Shown one piece after another: positions 35,806 through 49,187 of a DNA stretch of 49,187 nucleotides. Where the stretch lies: assembly GCA_036557285.1 (NCBI GenBank), contig DATBHW010000025.1:1-49187 (forward strand), written 5' to 3'. The DNA comes from Ktedonobacterales bacterium. Lineage in GTDB: Bacteria; Chloroflexota; Ktedonobacteria; Ktedonobacterales; DATBGS01. The notes under the pieces are model-generated. The model searched no databases. It saw only the letters and a program-made list of their open reading frames with translations, and had not been told where the DNA came from. Positions within the stretch are counted from its first letter, which is position 1, and the number at the start of each line of letters is the position of its first letter. The position numbers and the translations under genes were made by a program.

Positions 35806-35882
35806 CGGGGTGTAGCGCAGTTGGTCAGCGCGCCTGGTTTGGGACCAGGAGGTCCCCGGTTCGAGTCCGGGCACCCCGACCA
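35806..35882 (+). tRNA. tRNA-Pro (TGG)
   Basis: Acceptor CGGGGTG/CACCCCG, anticodon loop TTTGGGA in stem CCTGG/CCAGG, T loop TTCGAGT, and an encoded CCA at 35880-35882, unlike the other three tRNAs here. It directly borders the Tn7-like element. Confidence 0.95.
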
Positions 35883-35900
35883 CTTTTCCCCTTTGGTAAT

Positions 35901-35966
35901 TGACACGAATTTTAGACCATTCATTACATGAATCTTAGACCATTTACATAAATCTTAGACCACTTA
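35901..35966 (+). repeat. Tn7-like transposon end: three tandem TnsB-type repeats
   Basis: TTAGACCA occurs at 35912, 35935 and 35955 within a longer shared unit (ACAYRAATYTTAGACCAYTY), spaced 23 and 20 bp. The outermost bases TGACAC at 35901 are the likely terminus, 18 bp beyond the CCA of tRNA-Pro. Arrays of this kind are bound by TnsB at Tn7-like ends. The partner end was not found. Confidence 0.7.
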
Positions 35967-36070: not shown

Positions 36071-36967
36071 ATGCCAGGCCGTTATTTTCCCAATTTTTCT
36101 TTTCAATGGGTTGCCGAAGGAGAAAAGCATCAAGTAATGCAAGCAGTGTCACTCGGTGACTCAGCTTGGACCGCTACCTTTCCTCATCGTGTGACTCCCC
36201 TTTATGATGAATGGTTCGCTGGGCTGTTACTGCGCTGTGATGAAGTTAATCATTGGCCAAGTGGAACCACTTTGACCATGCTCAGACAGGCCAGTAGTCC
36301 AACGAAACTCATCCAACTCCCCAATCTCAGTGTGCCCACTCAATATCAAATTGAGTGCATGGCAGTGTGGCTGGCTTTGCCGGTACAAACCGTGCGTGAT
36401 ACCACCTATCTCCAGGAACTGACCAAGCTCTATGGTGTGCTCCATCCGGTTCCGAAGGATTTATGGCCTTCTCTCACCTTTCGCATCTGCCCCGAATGCT
36501 TGAGAAAAAATCGCCTCCTCAAACGAACCCTGGCGTTGCCCCATGTGTGGTGTTGTCCCTGGCATGAAGTCACATTATTGACCCGCTGTCAATGTGGATC
36601 CCCTTTACGCCTCTTCAATCAACAAGCACTGCCATTTACCTGTCACGTCTGCAGGCGAGACTGGGCTGATCTTCCCACGGTTTCTCCTACCCCTGAGCGA
36701 ATTGCGATCACACGCCAACTCTTATCTTGCTACGAGAAGTTCCTTATTTGGGGCAATCCGGCGATGGTGGAGCAAGCCTTTTACGCTATTGTCCAAACCT
36801 GGGCAAACGAAATCAAACCCGGCTGGCGGCTGCCACCAGAATGGTTTCTTTGGGAGAACCGCCCGAGGCCAAGCCCTGCGTCATCAAATGGCGTTCCTTC
36901 ACTTAGCCGCCTCGTATTCAACTTGATCAAATACCACCTCTACTTTGATCCGCGAGTCGTCTTCTGA
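36071..36967 (+). CDS. tniQ: TniQ-family transposition protein (short form)
   Basis: 298 residues. The N-terminal TniQ signature is present: WTATFPHRVTPLYDEWFAGL, then LLRCDEVNHWPSGTT. A zinc cluster follows: Cys140, Cys143, Cys161/162, His165, Cys173, Cys175, Cys191 and Cys194 (CPEC, CPWH, CQCG, CHVC). Short TniQ proteins bridge a target-selecting module and TnsC. It ends soon after the zinc region and lacks the extra C-terminal domain of the 40909 paralogue. It stands first in the transposition cluster, with lower-GC codons than the flanking chromosome. Confidence 0.85.
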   Translation: MPGRYFPNFSFQWVAEGEKHQVMQAVSLGDSAWTATFPHRVTPLYDEWFAGLLLRCDEVNHWPSGTTLTMLRQASSPTKLIQLPNLSVPTQYQIECMAVWLALPVQTVRDTTYLQELTKLYGVLHPVPKDLWPSLTFRICPECLRKNRLLKRTLALPHVWCCPWHEVTLLTRCQCGSPLRLFNQQALPFTCHVCRRDWADLPTVSPTPERIAITRQLLSCYEKFLIWGNPAMVEQAFYAIVQTWANEIKPGWRLPPEWFLWENRPRPSPASSNGVPSLSRLVFNLIKYHLYFDPRVVF

Positions 36968-37276: not shown

Positions 37277-39928
37277 ATGGTTAAAACAGCTTCCAGTCCA
37301 ACCAACACACGACGCGGAACCCCTGGAGTCGACATCTTCAAACTTCCCGGAGCTTCTTATTCGGGCTATTTCAACAGTTATAAGACAGGGGATAAACAGC
37401 TTATTCGTATGCCGTACGCCTCAACACTAGAATTTAAACTCGGCTTGCTATATATGGAATATCATCCCCATGTTGTTCGCTTCCAACGAGGTGATATCAG
37501 TCCCGAGTTCGCCCATGCTCATCGCCATGCAACCCCTCTTTCTGTATCATTACCCTATCGGATTAATTATCCCTTTGAAGGGAAATCCCACGAGTACTGG
37601 CCAGATTACATCGGTATCTTGTCTGACGGCGGCCTTCTCATCGCCGAAGCAGGACTCACCAAGGAAAAATTAAAGGGGCAGGCGCTGGCGAAAGCCGATG
37701 CAGCACGCCGAGTTGCTCAATTGAAGGGTGGGGAGTATTGGATTGCCACGGAGCAGCACCTTTCTGATCGCCGCTTCAAAAACTTGCTGTTTCTTCACCG
37801 TTGCCGGGACGCTTTTGGAACCTTCGATGAAATTGCTGCTGCGCTTCGTGCTGACTGGCCTTGGGGAGAGGAACGCTGTGTTCGAGAGATCATCGAGCAT
37901 TGGGGGAGCAGGTGGTCTGATGACGAAGTAGAAGCTGCCGTGTGGAAAATCGTTGGAGACGCTGCTGCTGCTGGGAAGCTTGTTGTTGATCTGAGTGAGG
38001 TCTTATTAGATTTAGACACGCCGCTCAACTTGTTGGACCCGGAGGCTCCACCGATCCTCCCCGATCCTCTTCCCGATTCGCTTGAGGGGATGCTCGCAGC
38101 TGAGCAGTCTCCTTCAGAAGAGCTGGCAGATGATGAGGAAGCCGAAGCCACTGTGCTTTCCGACGATGGGCTGATTCCTGGTCCAGCCTATGATCCCGAA
38201 GAGCTTGATAAGGAAAGTCGCGAAACGTTCAATCGCAATCGTGACGCTGTAATGGCTGTCCTTTCTGGGCAGGGAGTGCGCCAGGTAGCTGAGGCGAACG
38301 GCATGGTCCATTCTGCTTTGCTCTACCTCATCAAGCGGGTCAATGAATATGGTCAAATTGCTCTGGTGCCTTACGGGGTCTATCATCGTGATCCAGCGCT
38401 GCGCCCAGCATTTCAGGAGAAGATTCGCAAGCTCTACAAGAGTCGCATGCGCCCGACTGTCAGGGCGGTAGAAAGAGACCCTGAACTGAGGGCGCTAGCC
38501 GAAGAGTTGACTAAACTTGAAGGCAAGTTGGTGAAGCCTCCAACGTATCGGCAAGTTTGGTGGTTTATCAGACGCATCGAGAACGAGCGCGATATCGTGG
38601 AGGCGCGATCAGGCTTGAAACACCCCCCCAAGCCGCGCATGTCGCCTACCTCCTTTGTTCGCTCGATTACCGCCCCAGGACTTATCTGTCAAACTGATGA
38701 GCATGACCTGGACATCTTGGTGGTGACCCGGGATGGAACGGTCGTCACCCACCGTGTTCATGGTGCTGTGCTGATCTGTGTCAAAACAGCAGCCATCCTG
38801 GCGGCAGTTCTCTCCCTCGATAGCCTGAAAGAAGAAGACTACATGCGTCTGATCAAGCAGGCAATTGAGCGAAAAGACAAGCTGGTGCGGCTGTATGAAT
38901 GCAAAAATTCCTGGCCCTGTCATGGAAAACCAGCCCTGGTTTTCCATGATCGTGGGAATATCTTCACCTCGGAGCGGGCGCAGCAAGTTTTGGTTGAACG
39001 GTTCCATATTACGACAGAGCGTGCGCCTGCGTTTTGTCCACAGGCAAAAGGAACAGTAGAAGCATTGTTTGTGTGGGTCATGGAGGAAGTGACGCATCGC
39101 TTACCTGGCACGACGAAAGCCAATCCACGAGACCGCGGAGCCTATCCGAGCGCCCAAGAGGCTGCGAAAGCAGGCATTACGCTTGATGTTCTGGAAATGT
39201 ATTTCATTCGAGCTATCACCGATAGATACATGCTCAAGTGGAACGACCTCCGAAATCAGACACCTCAGAATTTGTGGAACGATGCGGTGCGCCAGTATGG
39301 CATCCCCAAATGGTTGGGGTCTCAAGATGATCTCAAACTGATGCTCATGAAAGCCCACAACCGCAAGAATCCAGCAACAGGGCGCTATGCCATCCAGGAT
39401 GACCGCATTTCGTTCTTGGGACGCTGGTATGTCAGCCCAGGAGTGCTCAATCAGTTACGTGGCAAAGAGATCGACATTTACTATGACCGAAACGACATCT
39501 CGGTTATCTATCTCTTTTTAGAGGGTCTGCATGTGGGTGAGGCATATTGTGCTGAGTTCATGGGCCAAAGAGTCAGTCTGTGGGAGGCAAATGCTATACG
39601 TCGAGCCTCTGCGCCCCTGAAGAAAGCAGCTGAGGCCGAAAGTCTCGCAAATCACCAGGAGATTTTGGTGAAGGCCCGGTCTGGAAAACGCCACCAATAC
39701 GAGGAATCGATCCGCATGGAAAGGCAACGCTTGCTCGATTTGCGGGATGGAGAAATCCATACAGATCAGGTGAATGCTACAGTGCGCGCGCTCAGACAGC
39801 ATCAGCATCTCCAAAGTCAGGAGGAATCACCAGCGCCGGTATCAGGCGGTTTCACTTTCGAAGAGGATGAAAAAGACCAGCCAGCACGCCCGCTGGCCAT
39901 TCGCCCACGGAGGAAACCTAATGGGTAA
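37277..39928 (+). CDS. tnsAB: TnsA-TnsB fusion transposase
   Basis: 883 residues. Residues ~40-165 are TnsA-like: TLEFKLGLLY (Glu52), YWPDYIGILSDGG (Asp110), then LIAEAGLTKE where TnsA has an xVK motif; here the Lys position is Gly126. An acidic linker (~265-300) leads to HTH regions and the TnsB DDE core: Asp474 (CQTDEHDLDI), Asp558 (VFHDRGNIF) and Glu595 (KGTVEALF), then the beta-barrel and a basic C-tail that would contact TnsC. TnsB joins the 3' ends; TnsA normally cuts the 5' ends. GGAGG before the ATG. The stop overlaps tnsC. Confidence 0.9.
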   Translation: MVKTASSPTNTRRGTPGVDIFKLPGASYSGYFNSYKTGDKQLIRMPYASTLEFKLGLLYMEYHPHVVRFQRGDISPEFAHAHRHATPLSVSLPYRINYPFEGKSHEYWPDYIGILSDGGLLIAEAGLTKEKLKGQALAKADAARRVAQLKGGEYWIATEQHLSDRRFKNLLFLHRCRDAFGTFDEIAAALRADWPWGEERCVREIIEHWGSRWSDDEVEAAVWKIVGDAAAAGKLVVDLSEVLLDLDTPLNLLDPEAPPILPDPLPDSLEGMLAAEQSPSEELADDEEAEATVLSDDGLIPGPAYDPEELDKESRETFNRNRDAVMAVLSGQGVRQVAEANGMVHSALLYLIKRVNEYGQIALVPYGVYHRDPALRPAFQEKIRKLYKSRMRPTVRAVERDPELRALAEELTKLEGKLVKPPTYRQVWWFIRRIENERDIVEARSGLKHPPKPRMSPTSFVRSITAPGLICQTDEHDLDILVVTRDGTVVTHRVHGAVLICVKTAAILAAVLSLDSLKEEDYMRLIKQAIERKDKLVRLYECKNSWPCHGKPALVFHDRGNIFTSERAQQVLVERFHITTERAPAFCPQAKGTVEALFVWVMEEVTHRLPGTTKANPRDRGAYPSAQEAAKAGITLDVLEMYFIRAITDRYMLKWNDLRNQTPQNLWNDAVRQYGIPKWLGSQDDLKLMLMKAHNRKNPATGRYAIQDDRISFLGRWYVSPGVLNQLRGKEIDIYYDRNDISVIYLFLEGLHVGEAYCAEFMGQRVSLWEANAIRRASAPLKKAAEAESLANHQEILVKARSGKRHQYEESIRMERQRLLDLRDGEIHTDQVNATVRALRQHQHLQSQEESPAPVSGGFTFEEDEKDQPARPLAIRPRRKPNG

Positions 39929-40919
39929 TGAGTCTTCTCATCTGCCACCAGGTCGCTCATTCATAGAACGTACCGACTTTATCGACACTCCTTTTGAGCA
40001 ACGCTTTCAGTGGCTTTTGCGTCTGGGATGGAAACAGCGAACGTGGCACGTGATTGGCGCGGTCCCCCGAAGCGGGAAGTCGTTTGGTATTGATGATCTA
40101 CTTGAGCGCAGCGGAGCCAGCAAAGAAGCCACAGGACGAACCTATTTGCCCCTCCTGGTGATTCGTTCTCCGAAGAATCGGACGACAGAACGAGCCTTAT
40201 GTGTTGCTTTGGCTGGCGCCTTTGGGGTGATCCCGAAAATGACAGCGGATACGCTTCACTCATGGTTGGTAGCAGAATGTGTTCGTGCCCAGGTGGAGTG
40301 CATTATCATTGATGATGCTCAAGATCTGTCGGTAGCTCACTTGCGCTATCTGAAAGAACTCACTGATGATTTGGCCGCGCTTCCACATCGTCGCCAGGTC
40401 GGACTCTGCCTGGTTTCTGCCACGTACGGCGAGGCGTTTCCCCTCCAGAAAGAACTAAACCAAACCGGCACGCTCTGGGCACAGTTTCGGGAGCGATTGG
40501 ATAGAGAGCGACCATACTGTCGAGTCCCAGGGCATACGGAAGCAGAAGTACATGACATTCTGGGGGCCTATGAAGAGTTGTACCGCGATCAATTTCCCGA
40601 CTTGCACCTGCGTAAGTGGACCAAATCTATCTATACATGCCTGACAGACCCGGCTCTAGATCCTCGATCAAGCAGGCGTGTCGTTATGTATCATCTCTCG
40701 ACATTTGTGAGGCTTTCCTTAAAGAGGGCGGCTGAAGCTAGGTTGACCAATGTGGATAAATCCATCATGGAAACGGTAGCCAACCTGATGACATTAAGAC
40801 GCGATGAAGTGATCGATATCGATGAGGTACCGCTCGAGGATGAGGAGTTACCTGGTAATGAAGTAACTGACATTGATGGATTGCCACCTGAGGATGAAGA
40901 GCCACCTGGTGAGGAATAG
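39921..40919 (+). CDS. tnsC: TnsC-type AAA+ transposition regulator
   Basis: 332 residues. Walker A GAVPRSGKS (46-54), Walker B CIIIDDAQDL (127-136), sensor-type GLCLVSATYGEAF and a helical C-terminal part. It assembles on target DNA and activates TnsB; contacts TniQ/TnsD. The acidic tail contains repeats of IDEVPLEDEELPG type. ATG 39921 (GGAGG seven bases upstream) lies inside the tnsAB end, so the genes are coupled. Confidence 0.9.
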   Translation: MGNESSHLPPGRSFIERTDFIDTPFEQRFQWLLRLGWKQRTWHVIGAVPRSGKSFGIDDLLERSGASKEATGRTYLPLLVIRSPKNRTTERALCVALAGAFGVIPKMTADTLHSWLVAECVRAQVECIIIDDAQDLSVAHLRYLKELTDDLAALPHRRQVGLCLVSATYGEAFPLQKELNQTGTLWAQFRERLDRERPYCRVPGHTEAEVHDILGAYEELYRDQFPDLHLRKWTKSIYTCLTDPALDPRSSRRVVMYHLSTFVRLSLKRAAEARLTNVDKSIMETVANLMTLRRDEVIDIDEVPLEDEELPGNEVTDIDGLPPEDEEPPGEE

Positions 40920-42285
40920 ACCAGTGGATTCCATAGGGATACATGACCCCCACTGGCGCACAACCTTTCCTGATCGTGTCCTCCCTCAGGAAGGAGAGTG
41001 GCTGCTCGGTCTCTTGCTACGTTGTGATGAAGCCAATGGGTGGTTCAGCGGAACGACGGCGTTATACATCGCACGGTTCGCTACAGGGCCCCAAACACTG
41101 AGCAGATCAGCGCTCTTTGTGATGGGCTCGATTTTTGAGCTTCCATTGCTTGCTGAGAGGCTGGTTGTCACTCCCAAGGAGATTTTCGCTACTACTTTCA
41201 CCGCGCCACTCCAGCGCCTCTATGCCCCTGCTTCTCCCAATGTAGCCCAGATTGGGCCATCCCCACCGTTTCGTGTCTGCCCAAAGTGCCTGGCCCAGAA
41301 TAAACTCCTCCCCCTTTCTCTCGCCTTGCCCGCTATTCAAAACTGCCCTACGCATCACCTGGTCTTGCAAACCGTATGCTGTTGTGGCGTCCCGCTCCGT
41401 CCATTCTCTAGGCATATCAAACCGTTTACCTGTGAGAAGTGTGGCCTGTATTGGTCCAATTTGCCCCAATTGCCTGCTGAACCAGCTGCCCTCAAAATCG
41501 AAGCCAAGTTGTACTCCCTCTATGGGTTCTTTTTGACAAAGGGAACACCAGAGATCATTGCATATGCGCTTCGTCTGATTCGTACCTCGGAAGCAAAGAA
41601 CACAAAGCGAGAAACCACGGAGCCTGGAGGCAGCTCCCTCTTCAAGAATTCGTACTATTCTGGAACCGTCTCACTGGCATTTCTGGTGACCAATCTGGTT
41701 GGCCAGGGAATCACGATGGAAGATATTGCGTGGCCTGCCCGCCCTTTCTCAAAGGAAGAACGGTACTGTCTCAATCGCGCCTGTCCCTTGTTTAGTGTCG
41801 TGGATGCAGGTAATGTGCATCGCTATGGTCACCGCGATGGGGTGCAAGAGTGGTATTGCAACATGTGTGGCAGCCGGTTCATCGGCGACCATCTCTGTAT
41901 GTCCTTTGACGTGGGGTGTCACGGCCAAGGAAACGATGATGTTTATCTTTCGTCTAGCGCCATTGAGCGCGCCCAGAAGCGCCTGGCACGGTGGAAACAA
42001 AAGCTTGAGGCTACCTGCGAAGCCATGCTGGTACGTGGAGAACCCATTGCAGTCGAAAATGCCTTTGCACACGCGGGGATTCCAGGAACAGCGAATCTGC
42101 GAGCAACCCGCCTGGGGTTAGTGCGCCTGGTGGCCGAGTATGCTGCAAGACAGGAACAAGCACTACCTCCAGAAGGACGAGAACGGTGGGTGGTGCGTAC
42201 ACATATGCACCGACGAAAGAAGCTTCTCGCAAAGCAGAAAACAGAGGGTGCTGGTAGTGGTCCTGACTCGCAGGAAACTGCCTGA
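40909..42285 (+). CDS. tnsD: TnsD-like (long TniQ) target-selection protein
   Basis: About 458 residues; GTG 40909 (overlapping tnsC) or GTG 40924 are the likely starts. N-terminal TniQ signature WRTTFPDRVLPQEGEWLLGL and zinc cluster CPKC, CPTHH, CCCG, CEKC match the 36071 protein. A second Cys/His module follows (YCLNRACPLFSV ... YCNMCGSRF), then a helical basic C-terminus. TnsD proteins bind a fixed attachment site; here the neighbouring tRNA-Pro is the natural candidate, by inference. Confidence 0.85.
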   Translation: MRNRPVDSIGIHDPHWRTTFPDRVLPQEGEWLLGLLLRCDEANGWFSGTTALYIARFATGPQTLSRSALFVMGSIFELPLLAERLVVTPKEIFATTFTAPLQRLYAPASPNVAQIGPSPPFRVCPKCLAQNKLLPLSLALPAIQNCPTHHLVLQTVCCCGVPLRPFSRHIKPFTCEKCGLYWSNLPQLPAEPAALKIEAKLYSLYGFFLTKGTPEIIAYALRLIRTSEAKNTKRETTEPGGSSLFKNSYYSGTVSLAFLVTNLVGQGITMEDIAWPARPFSKEERYCLNRACPLFSVVDAGNVHRYGHRDGVQEWYCNMCGSRFIGDHLCMSFDVGCHGQGNDDVYLSSSAIERAQKRLARWKQKLEATCEAMLVRGEPIAVENAFAHAGIPGTANLRATRLGLVRLVAEYAARQEQALPPEGRERWVVRTHMHRRKKLLAKQKTEGAGSGPDSQETA

Positions 42286-42318
42286 GCGCTTCCAGATTTG
42301 CATACTCTGGCAGCGATG

Positions 42319-42606
42319 TTAGATGTAATCTCCATCTGTCTCGTTTGCTAGAGGGTTTCGATGCTGCTCCTGGCTGCTCCGAAAAACCCATTGTTCGGGA
42401 GGAGTGGTCAGTCGTTTCCGTGAGGTCTTGAGCGCTTTGGCAAGCTTGTCGATGGTCGCATAGTGGGCATTCGCCCCGCGTTCGAGACGACTAATCGTGG
42501 CAATTCCCACGCCAGAGCGCGCCGCCAATTCTTCCTGGGAAAGTGTCGCACGTTTTCGCATTGCCGCCAATCCGGGTACTGGCACGCCCCTGGTGTCCTC
42601 TGCCAC
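42319..42606 (-). CDS. XRE-family HTH regulator
   Basis: 95 residues from GTG 42606; the frame is open to 42651. The HTH domain reads MRKRATLSQEELAARSGVG, ATISRLERG, preceded by RGVPVPGLAA. A C-terminal tail lacks known motifs. It is a paralogue of the 43336 protein, which shares the RGVPVP leader. Converges with tnsD. Confidence 0.8.
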   Translation of the reverse strand: MAEDTRGVPVPGLAAMRKRATLSQEELAARSGVGIATISRLERGANAHYATIDKLAKALKTSRKRLTTPPEQWVFRSSQEQHRNPLANETDGDYI

Positions 42607-42651
42607 GCTGTTGTGTGCATTCCTCCTGTCTGGTTGCACACAACATAGCAC

Positions 42652-43335
42652 ACCTTATTAATAGTAGATTGCTTATTTTAATCAATACTTTATCTTTACC
42701 TAATCATCAAGTAATCACTATATGATTTATTGTATGGAGTCTGGCTTTTAATGCACTGGCTTCTTTCCAGACTTATAATGAGAAGATTTGCAACAATATC
42801 GAAGTTTGTAGTACATTGAGAGGTAAAGACGTAGCCTTCGGCCTGTGCTGCGGGACCATGCGCGTGAAAATGCAGGGAGCGGGCGCGATTTCCACCTGCA
42901 TCAAAACGCTCTTCCCAGTCAGGTCTGCTTCGTTCGTTTAAGCGTTTCTGCCAGGAGATCCCCGGCTTTCCCTGTTCGGTGCTGTTCCGGCATCTGGCTA
43001 CAGCTCCTTTACATACAGGCGTCTACGAGAGACAAGCACCACCGAAGCTGTCGTGAACACCATGTGTCAATGGCATTGGTTTCTACTTCTTCAGATAAGA
43101 TGATTGACCTTACGGTTGCCCAATATCATATGGTCTTCCTCTGCGGCACCTTCTCATTGCGCAAACGATTGCCTCCTCCGGCTTGTCTCTCTCTGCTCTG
43201 ACAGCTCTCAAACAGCGTCAAAACTGGTGAATAGGTGAGCACTCAGTAGGAAATTAATGATGCAAACGAGGAAACAACCCAAGAACGTCTGTGTTATCGT
43301 GAAAGAAAAGCGTGTAAGGGAGCAGACACACCAAC
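42652..43335. other. 684-bp gap without a recognised gene
   Basis: AT-rich at the start (TTATTTTAATCAATAC), then ordinary composition. Contains a weak IR AGTCTGG/CCAGACT (42743 and 42770 region). Frames here are short or lack RBS and family similarity. It may hold a decayed transposon end or promoters for the two divergent XRE genes. Confidence 0.5.
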
Positions 43336-43593
43336 GTGGGAGGCAACACCAGAGGAGTGCCAGTGCCATCTTTAGCACTCTTCCGAAAACGAGCAGCCCT
43401 CTCTCAGGGAGAGTTGGCGGCGCGCGCAGGTGTGGGGAGGGCTACGATTAGCCGACTTGAGCGGGGCGGAAGCGCAAGCTTTGAGACCATTGAGCGGCTC
43501 GCAAAGGCGTTGAGGAAAGAACGCACCCAGTTGACCCAAAAACCACGTCTGGCGACCAGTAGGAAACACTCCAGAGCGATCTCACAAGGCTGA
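43336..43593 (+). CDS. XRE-family HTH regulator, paralogue
   Basis: 85 residues from GTG 43336. FRKRAALSQGELAARAGVG and ATISRLERGGSASF form the HTH; a basic tail follows (RKERTQLTQKPR). Preceded by RGVPVPSLAL as in the 42319 protein. The two diverge from one gap, so they may control each other. It lies just before a ParB-like gene. Confidence 0.8.
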   Translation: MGGNTRGVPVPSLALFRKRAALSQGELAARAGVGRATISRLERGGSASFETIERLAKALRKERTQLTQKPRLATSRKHSRAISQG

Positions 43594-43728
43594 GAGTTCT
43601 GGAATGCCCTCCTTGAGAATGCTTGAATCTCCTGGTTCGAGCAGCATCCTTCTGCTCTCGAATGAATATGGGAGACACCAGATTCGAGCTTCATGAGAAC
43701 TCCGGTGTTGTTGATGAAGGAGATTTGC

Positions 43729-45183
43729 ATGGCGACAGCCCTCACCATTGGGACAGTGCCTTTGGAGGAGATTCACGACCTGCGCTGGCCGACGGATCGC
43801 CATCTCGTGCAGTCGTTTCGGAAGACGCTGCAGCATAGCGGGCACTTTGCCCCCATGCATTTGAATCGTGTCTGGCAACCAGAGGTTTCCTGGCGCTATG
43901 AGGTCATTGATGGGTTCCACCGCTACGAGGCGGCCAAAGCCGAAGGGGTGGCTTCGCTGCTCTGCCAGGTCGTGGAAATCGAGGCCCAGCAGGCGCGCTA
44001 TGCCCGCATTCAAGCCTGCGTGGGTAAGCCCGCAGAGGTCACGCGAGAGCGGGCCTTGCGCGAACTGCGGTTGGCTTTTATCAGCGATATGCGCGGCGTC
44101 ATTGGCAGTCCAGCGCTCCTCTATGAACCCATTCTGAGCGAAGAGGGACAGGTGCAGGCGCGGCTGCGCGCTCTGCCACTGCCTGAGGAGCCGCTGGCCG
44201 CCCTGGAGGCGCTGACCGACCATCTGCTGGCGACGCAGCAAGACGTGCTTCCATCCTTCCTCCCGTCTGGGGTACAAGGAGGGGGTCGCACGCCCTTTGG
44301 GCAGCGCACTGGTTGGGAACAGCATCTCACGGACTGGCTTGCTGACCTGGGCGAGCGCTTCGGCTATGATTCCAGCTGGCTCCTCCAAGAGCTGCATCTG
44401 CATGTTCTCCAGGAACAGGGGCTGGGCCAGGGCTGGGCCACCCGCGAGCGCGATGCCTTCCAGCGTCAGGGAGGCTACGCCTTTCATGCCCTCTGGCTCT
44501 GGAACGTGCCTGATGTGGAACTGCGCGCCTGGCTGCGTCGGCAGATCCAGGCGCATCCCGAGCAGAGCGAGTGGCTGTGGAAAGCGCTCATGCTTTTAGG
44601 GTTCACCACGGCCCCGCAGCCTGGCAATCCGTTCCAAACGCTGCCCAAAAGCGCTCTGCTGGCCTTGTTCAATCGCCATCCTAGTCCCCGCGACCTGTAT
44701 CTGGCGCTGCGGGATCGGCAGGCCGGGCCGCCGCGCGACTCAGCCTCAGCGCCGCCTCCTCCACCAGCTGCACCGCCTCCTCCACCTGCCGCCCCAGTCC
44801 GTGAAGTGCCCGCCTCCGCTCCTCAAGAGCTGCCGCTTGTTGTTCCTGATAAGCCGGAACAGGTGTCCAGTGTCTTTACTGTCGTCTCGCCAACCTTTGG
44901 GCAGCCCCCACCTCGGCCTACTGCTCCGGTAATGCCCCCGGCTGCGCCGCCAGCCAAGCCGCCCGCCCCACGGAGTGCCGCAGTCCCACCGCGAGCGCCT
45001 CAACAGCCGGATCCTACCGCGGCCTATCAGCCGGTGCATAACGCCTGTGTTGCCTTGCTGCAAGCCATCGAGCAGCTCAACGCGCAGTATGGGCGAGCAT
45101 GGATGCAGTGGGAGCAGGCCCAGGCTGATTTGGCCCACCTGCGCGCCATTCTTGCGCCAGGTGATGAGAGCTCCAACCAGTGA
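43729..45183 (+). CDS. ParB/Srx-like N-terminal domain protein with proline-rich region
   Basis: 484 residues. N-terminal ParB-like fold: GTVPLEEIHDLRWP, HFAPMHLNRV and the core YEVIDGFHRYEAAKAEG (ParB GxxR-type region). A helical middle follows, then a long Pro/Ala stretch (nt 44735-45010, APPPPPAAPPPPPAAP) and a C-terminal helix with LNAQYGRAWMQWEQAQADL. Known relatives are plasmid partition CTPases or nucleases; here no ParA is present, so the role is open. ATG 43729 has AAGGAG six bases upstream. Higher GC than the Tn genes. Confidence 0.65.
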   Translation: MATALTIGTVPLEEIHDLRWPTDRHLVQSFRKTLQHSGHFAPMHLNRVWQPEVSWRYEVIDGFHRYEAAKAEGVASLLCQVVEIEAQQARYARIQACVGKPAEVTRERALRELRLAFISDMRGVIGSPALLYEPILSEEGQVQARLRALPLPEEPLAALEALTDHLLATQQDVLPSFLPSGVQGGGRTPFGQRTGWEQHLTDWLADLGERFGYDSSWLLQELHLHVLQEQGLGQGWATRERDAFQRQGGYAFHALWLWNVPDVELRAWLRRQIQAHPEQSEWLWKALMLLGFTTAPQPGNPFQTLPKSALLALFNRHPSPRDLYLALRDRQAGPPRDSASAPPPPPAAPPPPPAAPVREVPASAPQELPLVVPDKPEQVSSVFTVVSPTFGQPPPRPTAPVMPPAAPPAKPPAPRSAAVPPRAPQQPDPTAAYQPVHNACVALLQAIEQLNAQYGRAWMQWEQAQADLAHLRAILAPGDESSNQ

Positions 45184-45235
45184 AACGGCACTAGGCGGCG
45201 GAGACGCCTGTGTGCCAGATGATGGTATGAGGAGT

Positions 45236-45268
45236 GGACGTGGGTCGTCCCAAGTATGGGTCCCATAC
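45236..45268. promoter_or_regulatory. Two adjacent inverted repeats before abiEi
   Basis: GGACG/CGTCC (45236-45250, loop TGGGT) and GTATGGGTCCCATAC (45254-45268). AbiEi-type antitoxins repress their own promoters through inverted repeats, so these are plausible operators. Confidence 0.5.
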
Positions 45269-45321
45269 CGATGTGACGAATACGCTATAGATAACCAGGA
45301 AATGTGGAGGAATTGTCACCA

Positions 45322-45936
45322 ATGTCCGTGTCTTCCCCTTCTCCTCGATGTGAGGAAGTCCTCACCTTGGCACGCCAGTTGGGGGTACTCCGTTCTCGTG
45401 ATCTAGCCGCGCATGGCCTGGCCCGCGAACATCTGCGTCGGCTTGTCCAGGCCGGGCATCTCCAGCAGATTGAGCGGGGCTTCTATCACCTTCCTGCTGT
45501 TGATCAGTCCGAGCACTCCCCGCTCGTCGAAGTGGCCGGGCGCGTCCCGGCAGGAGTGGTCTGTTTGCATTCGGCTTTGGCTTTTCATCATCTCACGACT
45601 CAGGCGCCGAGAGAAGTGTGGCTGGCTCTGGAGCGGGATACCTACCAGCCCCGCGTCACATGGTGGCCGCTCCACATCGTTCGCTTCTCTGGATTGGCCT
45701 GGACTTTCGGGATGCAAGCGCATCAGGTGGAAGGGATACCAATCCAGGTGTATTCCCCCGCCAAAACCGTGGCGGATTGCTTCAAGTTTCGCTATAAACT
45801 TGGGTGGCATGTTGCGGTAGAGGCTTTGCGCGAGACGTGGCGCGCTCGGCGAGCGACACTAAGCGAGCTCTGGGAGGCTGCCCAGGTGTGCCGGGTCACC
45901 AGTGTGATGGGCCCGTATCTCGAAATCCTGGGGTGA
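45322..45936 (+). CDS. abiEi: AbiEi-type (type IV) antitoxin family protein
   Basis: 204 residues. Winged-helix start (CEEVLTLARQLGVLRSRDLAAHGLAREHLRRLVQ in part, ending GHLQQIERGFYHLP), then VCLHSALAFHHLTTQ and the family's YSPAKTVADCFKFRYKLG. AbiEi normally neutralises the nucleotidyltransferase AbiEii encoded next door. No such gene follows. ATG 45322 has GGAGG 11 bases upstream; GTG 45304 is an alternative. Confidence 0.8.
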   Translation: MSVSSPSPRCEEVLTLARQLGVLRSRDLAAHGLAREHLRRLVQAGHLQQIERGFYHLPAVDQSEHSPLVEVAGRVPAGVVCLHSALAFHHLTTQAPREVWLALERDTYQPRVTWWPLHIVRFSGLAWTFGMQAHQVEGIPIQVYSPAKTVADCFKFRYKLGWHVAVEALRETWRARRATLSELWEAAQVCRVTSVMGPYLEILG

Positions 45937-46133
45937 GCCACTCGCCCCAGGAATAAGCTGATACAGGGTTGTTCATGAGCAAGCCTCTGGATCAATTATT
46001 ATTCAGCCTGCCTTCACCTATGTCGTGTTCAGACCTGCCCTCCTGCTGGGCTGAACGAGCGAGAAGCCATATGCCGTTTCGGTTCTGCTATACTAAAAGC
46101 TAAAGCGTCAGCCACCAGGTAAAAGGGGAGCTT

Positions 46134-46727
46134 ATGACCACCCTTGAGCAAGCTATTCAGACGTTGCTCGATACCAGAGCTGCCGACCTCGTGCGCTTCG
46201 CCTGGGGCCAGAAGGGCACGACCTTTCAGAAAGCGCTTCCTCCCCTGCCCGTCTTTGATGCGCAGGTGGTCGTTTCCCATCTCTGCCGGGTGCAGCATGG
46301 ACACAACATTGGTCTGGTGCATCTGCAGATGCAGGCAACGCCCAATCCACTGCTCTCTGAGTCGATCTTTGAACAGGGAAGCGGAGTCTGGTGTGAAACC
46401 CATCTGCCCGTCCTCTCGACACTCTACTGGCTCGCCAAGGGGCATGCCCCGCCCTCTTCACCTTATCAGTGGATGGTCGATGGCCGTCCAATGCTGCAAT
46501 GGTTCTTTCGCATCATCGACATTACCAGCTTGTCGGCTGCGACCCTCCTGCACTCGGAACTCCCAGGCTTACTCCCACTGATCCCTTTCACACAGGATGC
46601 AGATAGCAAGACCATTGAACGCGCCAGGCAACAACTGCCAACGGCCTTACCAAGAAAGCAAATTGAGCAACTGGAAACCTTACTCCTGTTCTTCTGGGAG
46701 TATGTTCAAAGGAGCTCCACAGATTAA
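46134..46727 (+). CDS. Rpn/PD-(D/E)XK-like protein, degenerate
   Basis: 197 residues. Pattern NIGLVHLQMQATPNPLLSE, then SPYQWMVDGRPMLQWFFRIIDI and LPGLLPLIPFTQDA, close to the Rpn/DUF4351-type nuclease-like proteins common in cyanobacteria and Ktedonobacteria. The usual ExQ pair of the core (IEFQ) reads LQMQ here, so the metal-binding Glu is missing. May be inactive or a regulator. RBS AAAGGGGAG. Confidence 0.5.
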   Translation: MTTLEQAIQTLLDTRAADLVRFAWGQKGTTFQKALPPLPVFDAQVVVSHLCRVQHGHNIGLVHLQMQATPNPLLSESIFEQGSGVWCETHLPVLSTLYWLAKGHAPPSSPYQWMVDGRPMLQWFFRIIDITSLSAATLLHSELPGLLPLIPFTQDADSKTIERARQQLPTALPRKQIEQLETLLLFFWEYVQRSSTD

Positions 46728-46910
46728 TATTGGCTGCTAAGTAGGGAGAGGTGGTGTAAAGCTTCCTCAGACATGAATGCCTGGTCATCTACGACTAGGG
46801 CTTTCCTTGCCAGCTTCCTTCATGGCCTCGCTAGTGTGTCGTGCCGTCTTATTATTCCTGTTACATCTTACATTCAATTGCCCCTGTTTTTGCTGGATGC
46901 TTCAGCCTGC

Positions 46911-46973
46911 TTCAGCTATGCTTTGGATAGCTGAAACGCACCGTGCATTGGCGAGTGCTCGCCAATGCACGGT
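46911..46973 (+). promoter_or_regulatory. Two consecutive hairpins, one a perfect 34-bp palindrome
   Basis: TTCAGCTAT/ATAGCTGAA (46911-46935), then ACCGTGCATTGGCGAG (46940-46955) perfectly paired with 46958-46973 around TG. They end 35 bp before the small membrane gene. Possible regulatory or recombination site. Confidence 0.6.
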
Positions 46974-47007
46974 ATCCAGCAGATTCCTTAATAGAAAGGA
47001 GGGGGCA

Positions 47008-47151
47008 ATGATGAGGAATCGATACAACCGCACTGCCGGCCACCATTCCAGCGGGTCGGGAGAGGCCGCTCTCAAGCTGATACTCTTCCTGGCGTTGTCC
47101 ATCGGGGTACAAGTGCTGGTCAGTGCTCTGAATCGGCGCCTATCGTCCTAG
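47008..47151 (+). CDS. 47-residue single-pass membrane protein
   Basis: MMRNRYNRTAGHHSSGSGE is a polar basic lead, then one helix ALKLILFLALSIGVQVLVSAL and a basic end. AAAGGAGGGGG before ATG 47008 is the best RBS in this region. The TAG stop sits at the IS630 insertion; the two joined flanks would still read TAG, so the insertion spared the gene. Small membrane toxin or regulator are possibilities; nothing decides. Confidence 0.6.
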   Translation: MMRNRYNRTAGHHSSGSGEAALKLILFLALSIGVQVLVSALNRRLSS

Positions 47152-48339
47152 TGCATTTCCACCAAAGGTGATGGCGAATGTGGTATACTACAGGGCATGA
47201 GACCCCCCATTTTTACCCGACCTTTCACCCCAGACGAGCAGCATCAGATCCAGGCTGGGTTGCGTTCGTCCGATGCGTTTGTGCTGCGTCGCAGCCAGAT
47301 TTTGCTGGCCTCGGCCCGTGGCGAGCGCGCTCCGGTCATCGCTCGCCAACTCAGCTGCGACGACCAGACCGTGCGCAATGTGATCCACGAGTTCAATACG
47401 ACGGGCCTGACGGTCTTCCAGGAAGGCTCCTCTCGCCCGCACCGCCTGCGCACGACCTTCTCCGAGGAAGCCGCACAGCAGGTAAGAGCTCTGGTGCATC
47501 GCAGTCCCCACGACTTCGACAAAGCGAGCGGGCTGTGGACCTTAGACCTGGTGGCCCAGGTCAGTTTCGAGCAGGGACTGACGAGCACGCTCGTGTCCGA
47601 CGAGAGTATCCGCCGTCTGATCAAACGCTTAGGCCTCAACTGGAAGCGGGCCAAACACTGGATCACCAGCCCCGACCCGCAGTACCTGGTAAAAAAAACG
47701 CCCGAGACCGTTTGATTGCTTGGGCCAGTCACCAGCCCACCTGGGCGATCGGCTTTGGTGATGAAGTCTGGTGGAGCCGCTTTGCGCTGCCTCAGGCGCA
47801 TGCCTGGCAAAGTCCGGACCACCCCGTGCGGTTGGTCGAACAAGCCTGGCGCAAGGATGACCCTGACCCCAAAGCGCTGGCCTGCTACGGGGTCCTGTGG
47901 CAGCAGGGAACCCCCGAAGACCCCGACCGCTCGCAGATCTGGCTGCGCTTCGTGACCGGACGGCCGGTCAGCGCGATCACCAGTCAGTTCTTGGACTGGT
48001 GCTGCCAGCGACTGCACCAGCAAGGGAAGACCCATTGGCTCTTGATCTGGGACAATGCCTCCTGGCATAAGAGCCAGGCGGTGCGGAGGTGGATACGGGC
48101 GCACCATCAGCAGGTCAAGCAAGCGGGCAAAGGGGTACGCATCCTGCCCTTCCTGTTGCCGACGCAAAGCCCCTGGCTCAATCCGATTGAACCCAAGTGG
48201 GTGCATGCCAAGCGCAACGTGGTGGAGCTTGACGGCCTGCTGTCGGCTCGCCAATTGGCGGAACGCATCTGTGCTTACTTTGACTGCTCGTATGAACCCC
48301 ATCTCATCATCTCCGAACAGGTCGCGTGATTATGCACTA
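47149..48339 (+). mobile_element. IS630-family insertion sequence
   Basis: Flanked by the TA target duplication (47149-47150, 48338-48339) with short inverted ends TAGTGCAT / ATGCACTA. Carries one transposase reading through a -1 frameshift. About 1.19 kb, normal size. Confidence 0.85.
47197..48329 (+). CDS. IS630 transposase (two frames, -1 frameshift)
   Basis: The first part (47197-47715) carries the HTH region (VIARQLSCDDQTVRNVIHEF). The catalytic part continues in the -1 frame: FGDEVWWSRF (Asp), LIWDNASWHKS (Asp) and LLPTQSPWLNPIEPKW (Glu), the DDE triad of IS630/Tc1. A run of eight A (47691-47698) precedes the first-frame stop and suits programmed -1 slippage, known in many IS630 elements. 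An ordinary frameshift mutation is the alternative. Confidence 0.85.
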
Positions 48340-48350
48340 GTGACACTGGC

Positions 48351-48382
48351 TTGCGGGAGGCAGCGAAAGCTGCCTCCCGCAA
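48351..48382 (+). terminator. Perfect 14-bp stem with GAAA loop
   Basis: TTGCGGGAGGCAGC (48351-48364), GAAA, and the complement to 48382. Before the IS630 insertion it lay 12 bp after the small membrane gene's stop, as its terminator. No U-run. Confidence 0.65.
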
Positions 48383-48482
48383 CCTTGATAACGCGAAAGG
48401 GGATGCATGTTGCAGGAATGTATGAAATATAGGGAGCAGAAGGAGGTCGGAAGAGTTTCTCTGCTCTCAACACGAGGATACG

Positions 48483-48686
48483 ATGATAGCATCTACGAGC
48501 TTGCCCAGGTGCTATACTAAAGCTCAATTGTTGGAAGAAGCGCGAGCACGACACTATCCAGTGACGGAACGCTTGCTCACTGATTGGGTTGAACGAGGTT
48601 TGCTGGGGAGGCCAGAACGGCATGGTCAGGGGCGGAAAAAGGGCATAGGCGCCTGGTGGTCACGCCAGTACGCTTCCAGCCAGTAG
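48483..48686 (+). pseudogene. Truncated MerR-like HTH protein
   Basis: 67 codons. YTKAQLLEEARARHYPVTER, LLTDWVERGLLG and HGQGRKKGIGAWW match a MerR-like HTH family common in this group. After about residue 60 (nt 48663) the sequence enters an IS fragment on the other strand and the frame closes; the usual C-terminal part is gone. Confidence 0.55.
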
Positions 48687-48890
48687 CGGTGCGCGCAGTT
48701 TGGTGGCATGTCCATGTCGCCCATCGATCAGGGCCGCCTCGCCCTCGGTACGCACCCGCTTGAGGAAGTGGTAGGCCGTGGAACGGCTGATCCGCAGGCC
48801 CGCAGCGGCCACCGCTTCGTGCCAGGGCTGCCCCTGGAGCATGTGTTTCACCGCCTGCATCTTAGCTGACCGGTATGCTGCTGCCTGCAT
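48660..48890 (-). pseudogene. Transposase 5' fragment (HTH part only)
   Basis: MQAAAYRSAKMQAVKHMLQG, then SRSTAYHFLKRVRTEGEAAL and DGRHGHATKLR, the N-terminal HTH of an IS transposase. It ends abruptly at the HTH-gene junction, with no DDE domain left. Confidence 0.6.
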
Positions 48891-49041
48891 CGCGGCGCTC
48901 CCTTCATTGGGTTAGACGGTTCTCTTGCCTCGCGCAGGATACCAGATTGGTGCGTCCGAGTCTAGCTGCACACTTTAGCAGATGGGCAGACTCCCTGAGA
49001 CACCTTTGACAAATTGGAGTTCTTGAAAGCGTTGGTGCATA

Positions 49042-49080
49042 TGGACCTAAGTGGTCCATCCGGTAAGTATCTGCTATAAT
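49042..49080 (+). promoter_or_regulatory. Inverted repeat and -10 box of the edge IS630
   Basis: TGGACC/GGTCCA (49042-49047, 49053-49058), then TATAAT at 49075-49080 before the next transposase start. The stretch 48891-49041 holds no gene. Confidence 0.5.
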
Positions 49081-49108
49081 ACGGGCATCTGCTTGCTGGA
49101 GGTGCCCG

Positions 49109-49187
49109 ATGCCCCGTCCCCTGCCCACACGTGACCTGACGCCCGAGGAACGCGCTGACCTCGAACACCTGACCCGCTCCCGAACAG
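49109..49187 (+). CDS. IS630-family transposase, partial at window edge
   Basis: The 26 codons visible (PRPLPTRDLTPEERADLE, then HLTRSRT) are the usual IS630 N-terminus. GGAGG lies eight bases before the ATG. The gene continues past the window. Confidence 0.7.
   Translation, partial: MPRPLPTRDLTPEERADLEHLTRSRT

Follow-up and report, generated by a model that had tools for sequence, protein, structure and literature searches.

TnsA activity decides between clean insertion and cointegrate formation in Tn7-like elements, CRISPR-guided tools included. The locus described here raises the question whether a TnsA domain in which glycine stands at the place of the motif III lysine can still cut DNA, and how an element with such a domain moves. 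The window analyzed is a stretch of 49,187 nucleotides, the whole of a contig from a soil bacterium of Ktedonobacteria type, and the domain in question belongs to a TnsAB fusion transposase encoded on it.

A Tn7-like element beside a tRNA gene

The window carries a Tn7-like element (TniQ1, TnsAB, TnsC, TniQ2) beside a tRNA-Pro gene, with the following features:

35806..35882, plus strand: tRNA-Pro (TGG), probable attachment site; 11 bp separate it from the right end, which lies downstream
35889-35893: 5-bp flank CCCTT, outside the right end
35894..35963, plus strand: right end, made up of the terminus TGGTAATTG and, behind it, three TnsB-type repeats
35901-35920, 35924-35943 and 35944-35963: TnsB-type repeats of 20 bp each, core ACATRAATYTTAGACCA
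36071..36967, plus strand: TniQ-family protein 1, 298 aa; TniQ match at E=3e-4, below the Pfam cut-off
37277..39928, plus strand: TnsAB fusion transposase, 883 aa, intact
37322..37966, plus strand: TnsA-like PD-(D/E)xK domain, about residues 16-230, with E52, D110, E124-A125-G126, K131 and K139
37643..37666, plus strand: motif III, A123-E124-A125-G126-L127-T128-K129-E130, bases GCCGAAGCAGGACTCACCAAGGAA; K131 follows at 37667-37669
38654..39640, plus strand: TnsB catalytic region with D474, D558 and E595; Mu-type C-terminal domain
39921..40919, plus strand: TnsC AAA+ ATPase; likely start ATG at 39921 after GGAGG, open frame from 39774
40873..42285, plus strand: TniQ-family protein 2, TnsD-like, 470 aa, with a C-terminal zinc ribbon
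42286..49187, no strand assigned: probable cargo, running to the contig end

Tn7-like transposons are defined by the DDE transposase TnsB and by TnsC, together with TnsA and/or TniQ (PMC11406308), and all of these are encoded here, the two TniQ proteins being 35% identical to each other. The right end at 35894-35963, whose terminus was placed by comparison with relatives, has the form expected of Tn7-like ends (TG...CA termini, repeated TnsB sites), and the 5-bp target-site duplication (TSD) that belongs to this type of element is found in 13 relatives. The right-end repeats read towards the genes; three matches were found in the window against 0.13 expected, and no other copy was found anywhere in the genome. 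A three-mismatch scan, a weight-matrix scan and a TSD-anchored pattern found no left end in the window or in the whole assembly.

The cargo contains two XRE regulators, a 496-aa protein, an AbiEi-like gene and an IS630-type DDE_3 transposase, and no resolvase was recognized in its visible 6.9 kb (42286-49187). Both XRE-type regulators are small, lie downstream of tniQ2 (42319-42651, minus strand; 43336-43593, plus strand) and have similar helix-turn-helix parts. No partner toxin gene was recognized beside the AbiEi-family antitoxin-like gene (45304-45936). A second TnsA-like fragment is present in the same genome (G000:C38:47122-47337) and matches NF033179 with E=5e-8.

In its architecture the element resembles the group of TnsAB-fusion, two-TniQ, tRNA-site elements behind the I-B2 and I-D CASTs (PMC10293859, PMC11406308). 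With the cyanobacterial members of this group (PmcCAST of type I-B2, CyCAST/McCAST of type I-D) it shares the TnsAB fusion, TnsC, two TniQ genes, an end adjacent to a tRNA gene that serves as the probable attachment site, and 5-bp TSDs in its relatives; however, no CRISPR-Cas genes were recognized nearby, motif III reads EAG, and the end lies 11 bp from the tRNA gene rather than about 30-33 bp. Tn5053 and the type V-K CAST possibly work with a transposase without 5' cleavage, as might the window element, but they have no TnsA domain, and the presence of such a domain in the window TnsAB sets it apart from this TnsA-less class.

The altered motif III

The initial annotation had read from the translation of the open reading frame that E52 and D110 are in place, that glycine stands at the lysine position (G126) and that the TnsB triad is intact. 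We can confirm these readings, and D474, D558 and E595 are furthermore invariant across the family. The same annotation had named Lys130 as the nearest lysine, which is an error: residue 130 is glutamate, and the lysines near G126 are K129, K131, K133 and K139. At the site of the canonical (E/Q)-x-K, the TnsA domain has E124-A125-G126, as aligned by MAFFT with 20 canonical TnsAs, among them that of Tn7 (1f1z sequence). The metal ligands of TnsA (E63, D114 and an acidic residue or Gln in motif III) have their counterparts in E52, D110 and E124. Tn7 TnsA (1f1z, 1t0f) and the window TnsA have the fold, E63/E52, D114/D110 and the helix lysine K145/K139 in common, whereas Q130-V-K132-P of the former is replaced by E124-A-G126-L and L137 by K131.

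The canonical set (n=20) comprised Tn7 TnsA (identical to 1f1z), six TnsAs from proteobacterial plasmids and 13 from Chloroflexota. All 15 clade members with sequence at position 126 have Gly there, against Lys in 19 and Arg in one of the canonical TnsAs. At position 131 every one of the 15 has Lys, against a Leu, Ile or Val in 18/20 of the canonical set. Lysine at position 139 is shared more widely (15/15 clade members and 11/20 canonical TnsAs, including K145 of Tn7). Every clade sequence that the alignment covers at the carboxylate positions retains them (E52 in 12/12, D110 in 14/14, E124 in 15/15). A decayed fragment outside the conservation set (L070) has Asn at position 110. Since Gly126 is fixed in the clade, a mutation confined to the window copy or a sequencing error at this codon was rejected. 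The motif III change defines a clade and is no lesion of the window copy, and G126 and K131 are a paired change within it.

In a maximum-likelihood phylogeny built from 34 TnsA domains, the Gly126 clade forms one branch (support 100/99), a long one, and the deeper nodes of the tree are unsure. The NF033179-type TnsA-like proteins of Chloroflexota and the EEWKP TnsAB group come from the same phylum, with fusions in the same domain order, but they keep the lysine (ECK or EWK) and form a different clade. Relatives of the window TnsAB occur in 19/47 genomes of the class, some of them matching solely in the TnsB part, and all 24 loci from the genome-wide scan lie in Ktedonobacteria or in a Chloroflexi MAG. 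Two further relatives were found elsewhere in Chloroflexota, one of them (G101) with a TnsAB 56% identical and the other (G348) 32% identical to that of the window; even the latter keeps EAG, K131 and K139. In the collections searched here the Gly126 clade was found only in Chloroflexota: viral contigs gave no relative of the TnsA domain, and matches on plasmids covered the TnsB part only and none the TnsA domain. The G101 locus (L128, on a contig of 9135 bp), the closest relative, has apparent genes for a Tn3-family transposase and a tyrosine recombinase directly upstream of tnsAB. We found no published report of a Gly126/Lys131 TnsA variant in a limited literature search.

In two pairs with unsaturated dS, the dN/dS of the TnsA domain was about 0.085 and about 0.09. 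Together with the kept carboxylates, these low values fit a TnsA domain under selection, although they do not by themselves prove catalysis.

Candidates for a relocated lysine

A structure prediction had been proposed in the initial annotation as a check on the domain, and the fold of the AlphaFold model turned out to match Tn7 TnsA only (Foldseek matches significant for 1t0f/1f1z alone, E 1e-6, prob 1.00). A search of PDB sequences with the TnsA profile gave no match, although the fold comparison did. The model reaches a modest mean pLDDT of 65, with about 72-89 for residues 91-150, and it is based on 14 similar sequences. Its core consists of a helix at 50-62 with E52 and of strands at 103-107, 111-115 and 120-125; the third strand ends at E124-A125 and is followed by a short turn at 129-131 and a helix at 135-149.

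One could suppose that the alignment is off, that a different lysine is the catalytic one and that the domain is a normal PD-(D/E)xK enzyme. The TnsA models of Pfam (PF08722, E=0.011) and NCBIfam indeed match the domain weakly, below their cut-offs. The strand-turn-helix stretch, however, aligns without gaps to the TnsAs of Tn7 and Chloroflexota, and in the DSSP assignment for the model E124 closes the third core strand, so that we consider a misalignment very improbable. With scores below the cut-offs of these models and the textbook lysine absent, members of the Gly126 clade would enter annotations as a missing or dead TnsA.

A shift of the lysine from motif III to motif IV is known from other PD-(D/E)XK families, where motif III then reads (D/E)X(D/N/S/C/G) and the moved lysine sits in the motif IV helix (PMC1913061). 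DUF506, DUF790 and DUF1626 are comparable to the window TnsA in having a motif III of the type (D/E)x(G etc.) and, beyond the third core strand, a positive residue; they differ in being non-transposases and in carrying the moved residue in the motif IV helix (PMC1913061). In the window TnsA two conserved lysines follow the third core strand, K131 and K139, both present in 15/15 clade members. A third candidate, K129, is D, Q, R or A in relatives and was rejected as a substitute because it is not conserved.

In the model, K131 falls in the turn that links the third core strand to the next helix, and we regard it as the better candidate for taking over the role of the lost lysine, with K139 less likely. 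The suggestion made in the initial annotation that another lysine may substitute is therefore one that we favor, with K131 in place of its "Lys130". The nuclease might instead be active without any lysine substitute in the metal site, or through the helix lysine K139, with K131 making contact to DNA or to another subunit. K139 occupies the motif IV helix position where published lysine migrations end, and in this respect it fits the precedent better than K131 (PMC1913061). Position 131, on the other hand, is nearly always hydrophobic in canonical TnsAs, and since the equivalent of K139 is already present beside K132 in Tn7 TnsA, this reading leaves the coupled change at 126 and 131 unexplained; we consider it quite unlikely.

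Insertions of the relatives and the mode of movement

The ends of the relatives have the form TGGTAAWT...AWTTACCA and were paired in the fetched regions by inverted similarity over 30 bp. Perfect 5-bp TSDs flank 13 of 32 candidate end pairs, a set that includes nested and wrong pairings, against 0.03 expected. The perfect-TSD set spans larger elements (3.8, 5.0 and 14.1 kb) as well as transposase-less elements of 289-1972 bp, some of them with a passenger gene. Those discussed below are:

L054:7844-11664: 3.8-kb element of Ktedonospora formicarum with tnsAB (frameshifted) and tnsC only; TSD ATGTG
L065:7770-12768: 5.0-kb element of Ktedonobacter racemifer with tnsAB (frameshifted), tnsC and one more ORF; TSD ATTCC
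L191:2777-4577, L192:17435-18918, L194:1954-3408 and L205:2488-4459: transposase-less passenger elements, each with a perfect 5-bp TSD
L186:1929-2217 (289 bp) and L189:2744-3162 (419 bp): MITE-like elements with TGGTAA...TTACCA ends and perfect 5-bp TSDs

In the two compact elements (3.8 and 5.0 kb) tblastn detected no TniQ and no resolvase was recognized. Among the bounded relatives with tnsAB, those read are all decayed or interrupted. A 14.1-kb perfect-TSD element carries nested elements, and two tyrosine recombinases and one group II intron within it appear to belong to nested insertions. The four passenger elements have near-perfect inverted ends of the clade type (70-165 bp) and carry, as judged by eye, genes such as those for an MFS-like transporter, an NTF2-like protein and a phosphotransferase-like protein. 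Two passenger elements were searched for in their genome and gave one full-length copy each, so that the multiple copies that would have pointed to replication were not seen; the inside of one passenger element has a 91% match elsewhere in the genome, without ends.

The glycine at position 126 throughout the clade, the invariant lysine five residues further on and the clean insertions argue that the TnsA domain is probably not dead and still cuts, by means of a moved lysine. We lean towards a working TnsA nuclease with a relocated lysine and movement by cut-and-paste. The clade has exchanged the motif III lysine for glycine and gained the invariant lysine at 131; in our proposal the TnsA domain would still cut the 5' strands, while TnsB would cut and join the 3' strands, and the window element would move by cut-and-paste.

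The initial annotation had proposed that the element may copy itself. The TnsA domain would then no longer cut and would persist in a structural role or as a contact for TnsC. TnsB alone would make the 3' cuts, and the element would move by copy-and-paste, forming cointegrates that recombination of the host resolves. In canonical TnsA, a PD-(D/E)xK enzyme, the motif III lysine is essential. Active-site mutants of TnsA switch to cointegrates, those of a TnsAB fusion included (PMC8188705), many Tn7-like elements do without TnsA altogether (PMC8649781), and some relatives studied here (racem_b outer, robin) have ends without a matching TSD. Against a dead domain, however, speak the metal ligands kept down to 32% identity, the strong purifying selection on the domain, the pairing of Gly126 with an invariant new lysine, the perfect-TSD simple insertions of very short elements, the lack of a recognized resolvase in the compact elements and the finding of one full copy each for the two elements tested. 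Tn5053-type elements, for comparison, carry resolvases. We therefore consider replicative movement unlikely, but the case against it falls short of decisive, since a cointegrate, once resolved, likewise leaves a simple insertion with a 5-bp duplication.

For the lineage as a whole, we are evenly divided on a broader proposal built on the relocated lysine: that a Chloroflexota Tn7-like lineage has rebuilt its TnsA site, with Gly at motif III and a lysine in the next turn, that it has kept cut-and-paste movement, and that compact TnsAB-TnsC members without TniQ or a resolvase mobilize single-gene passengers via their ends. If active, the domain would represent a natural relocation of an active site in a transposase, in which the role of the lysine could be tested by swapping residues 126 and 131. 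If dead, the fusion would have retained its metal ligands for something other than catalysis, which would be surprising as well.

Two arrangements among the relatives deserve mention. A 12.6-kb element (L053:6471-19042) has well matching ends with unlike flanks (GCTCA/ATACC) and holds a nested 5.3-kb element with a perfect TSD. At L200:1267-4803 two elements lie 93 bp apart; their outer ends share the TSD GGAGG and the inner flanks differ, and this adjacent pair may have moved as one composite unit.
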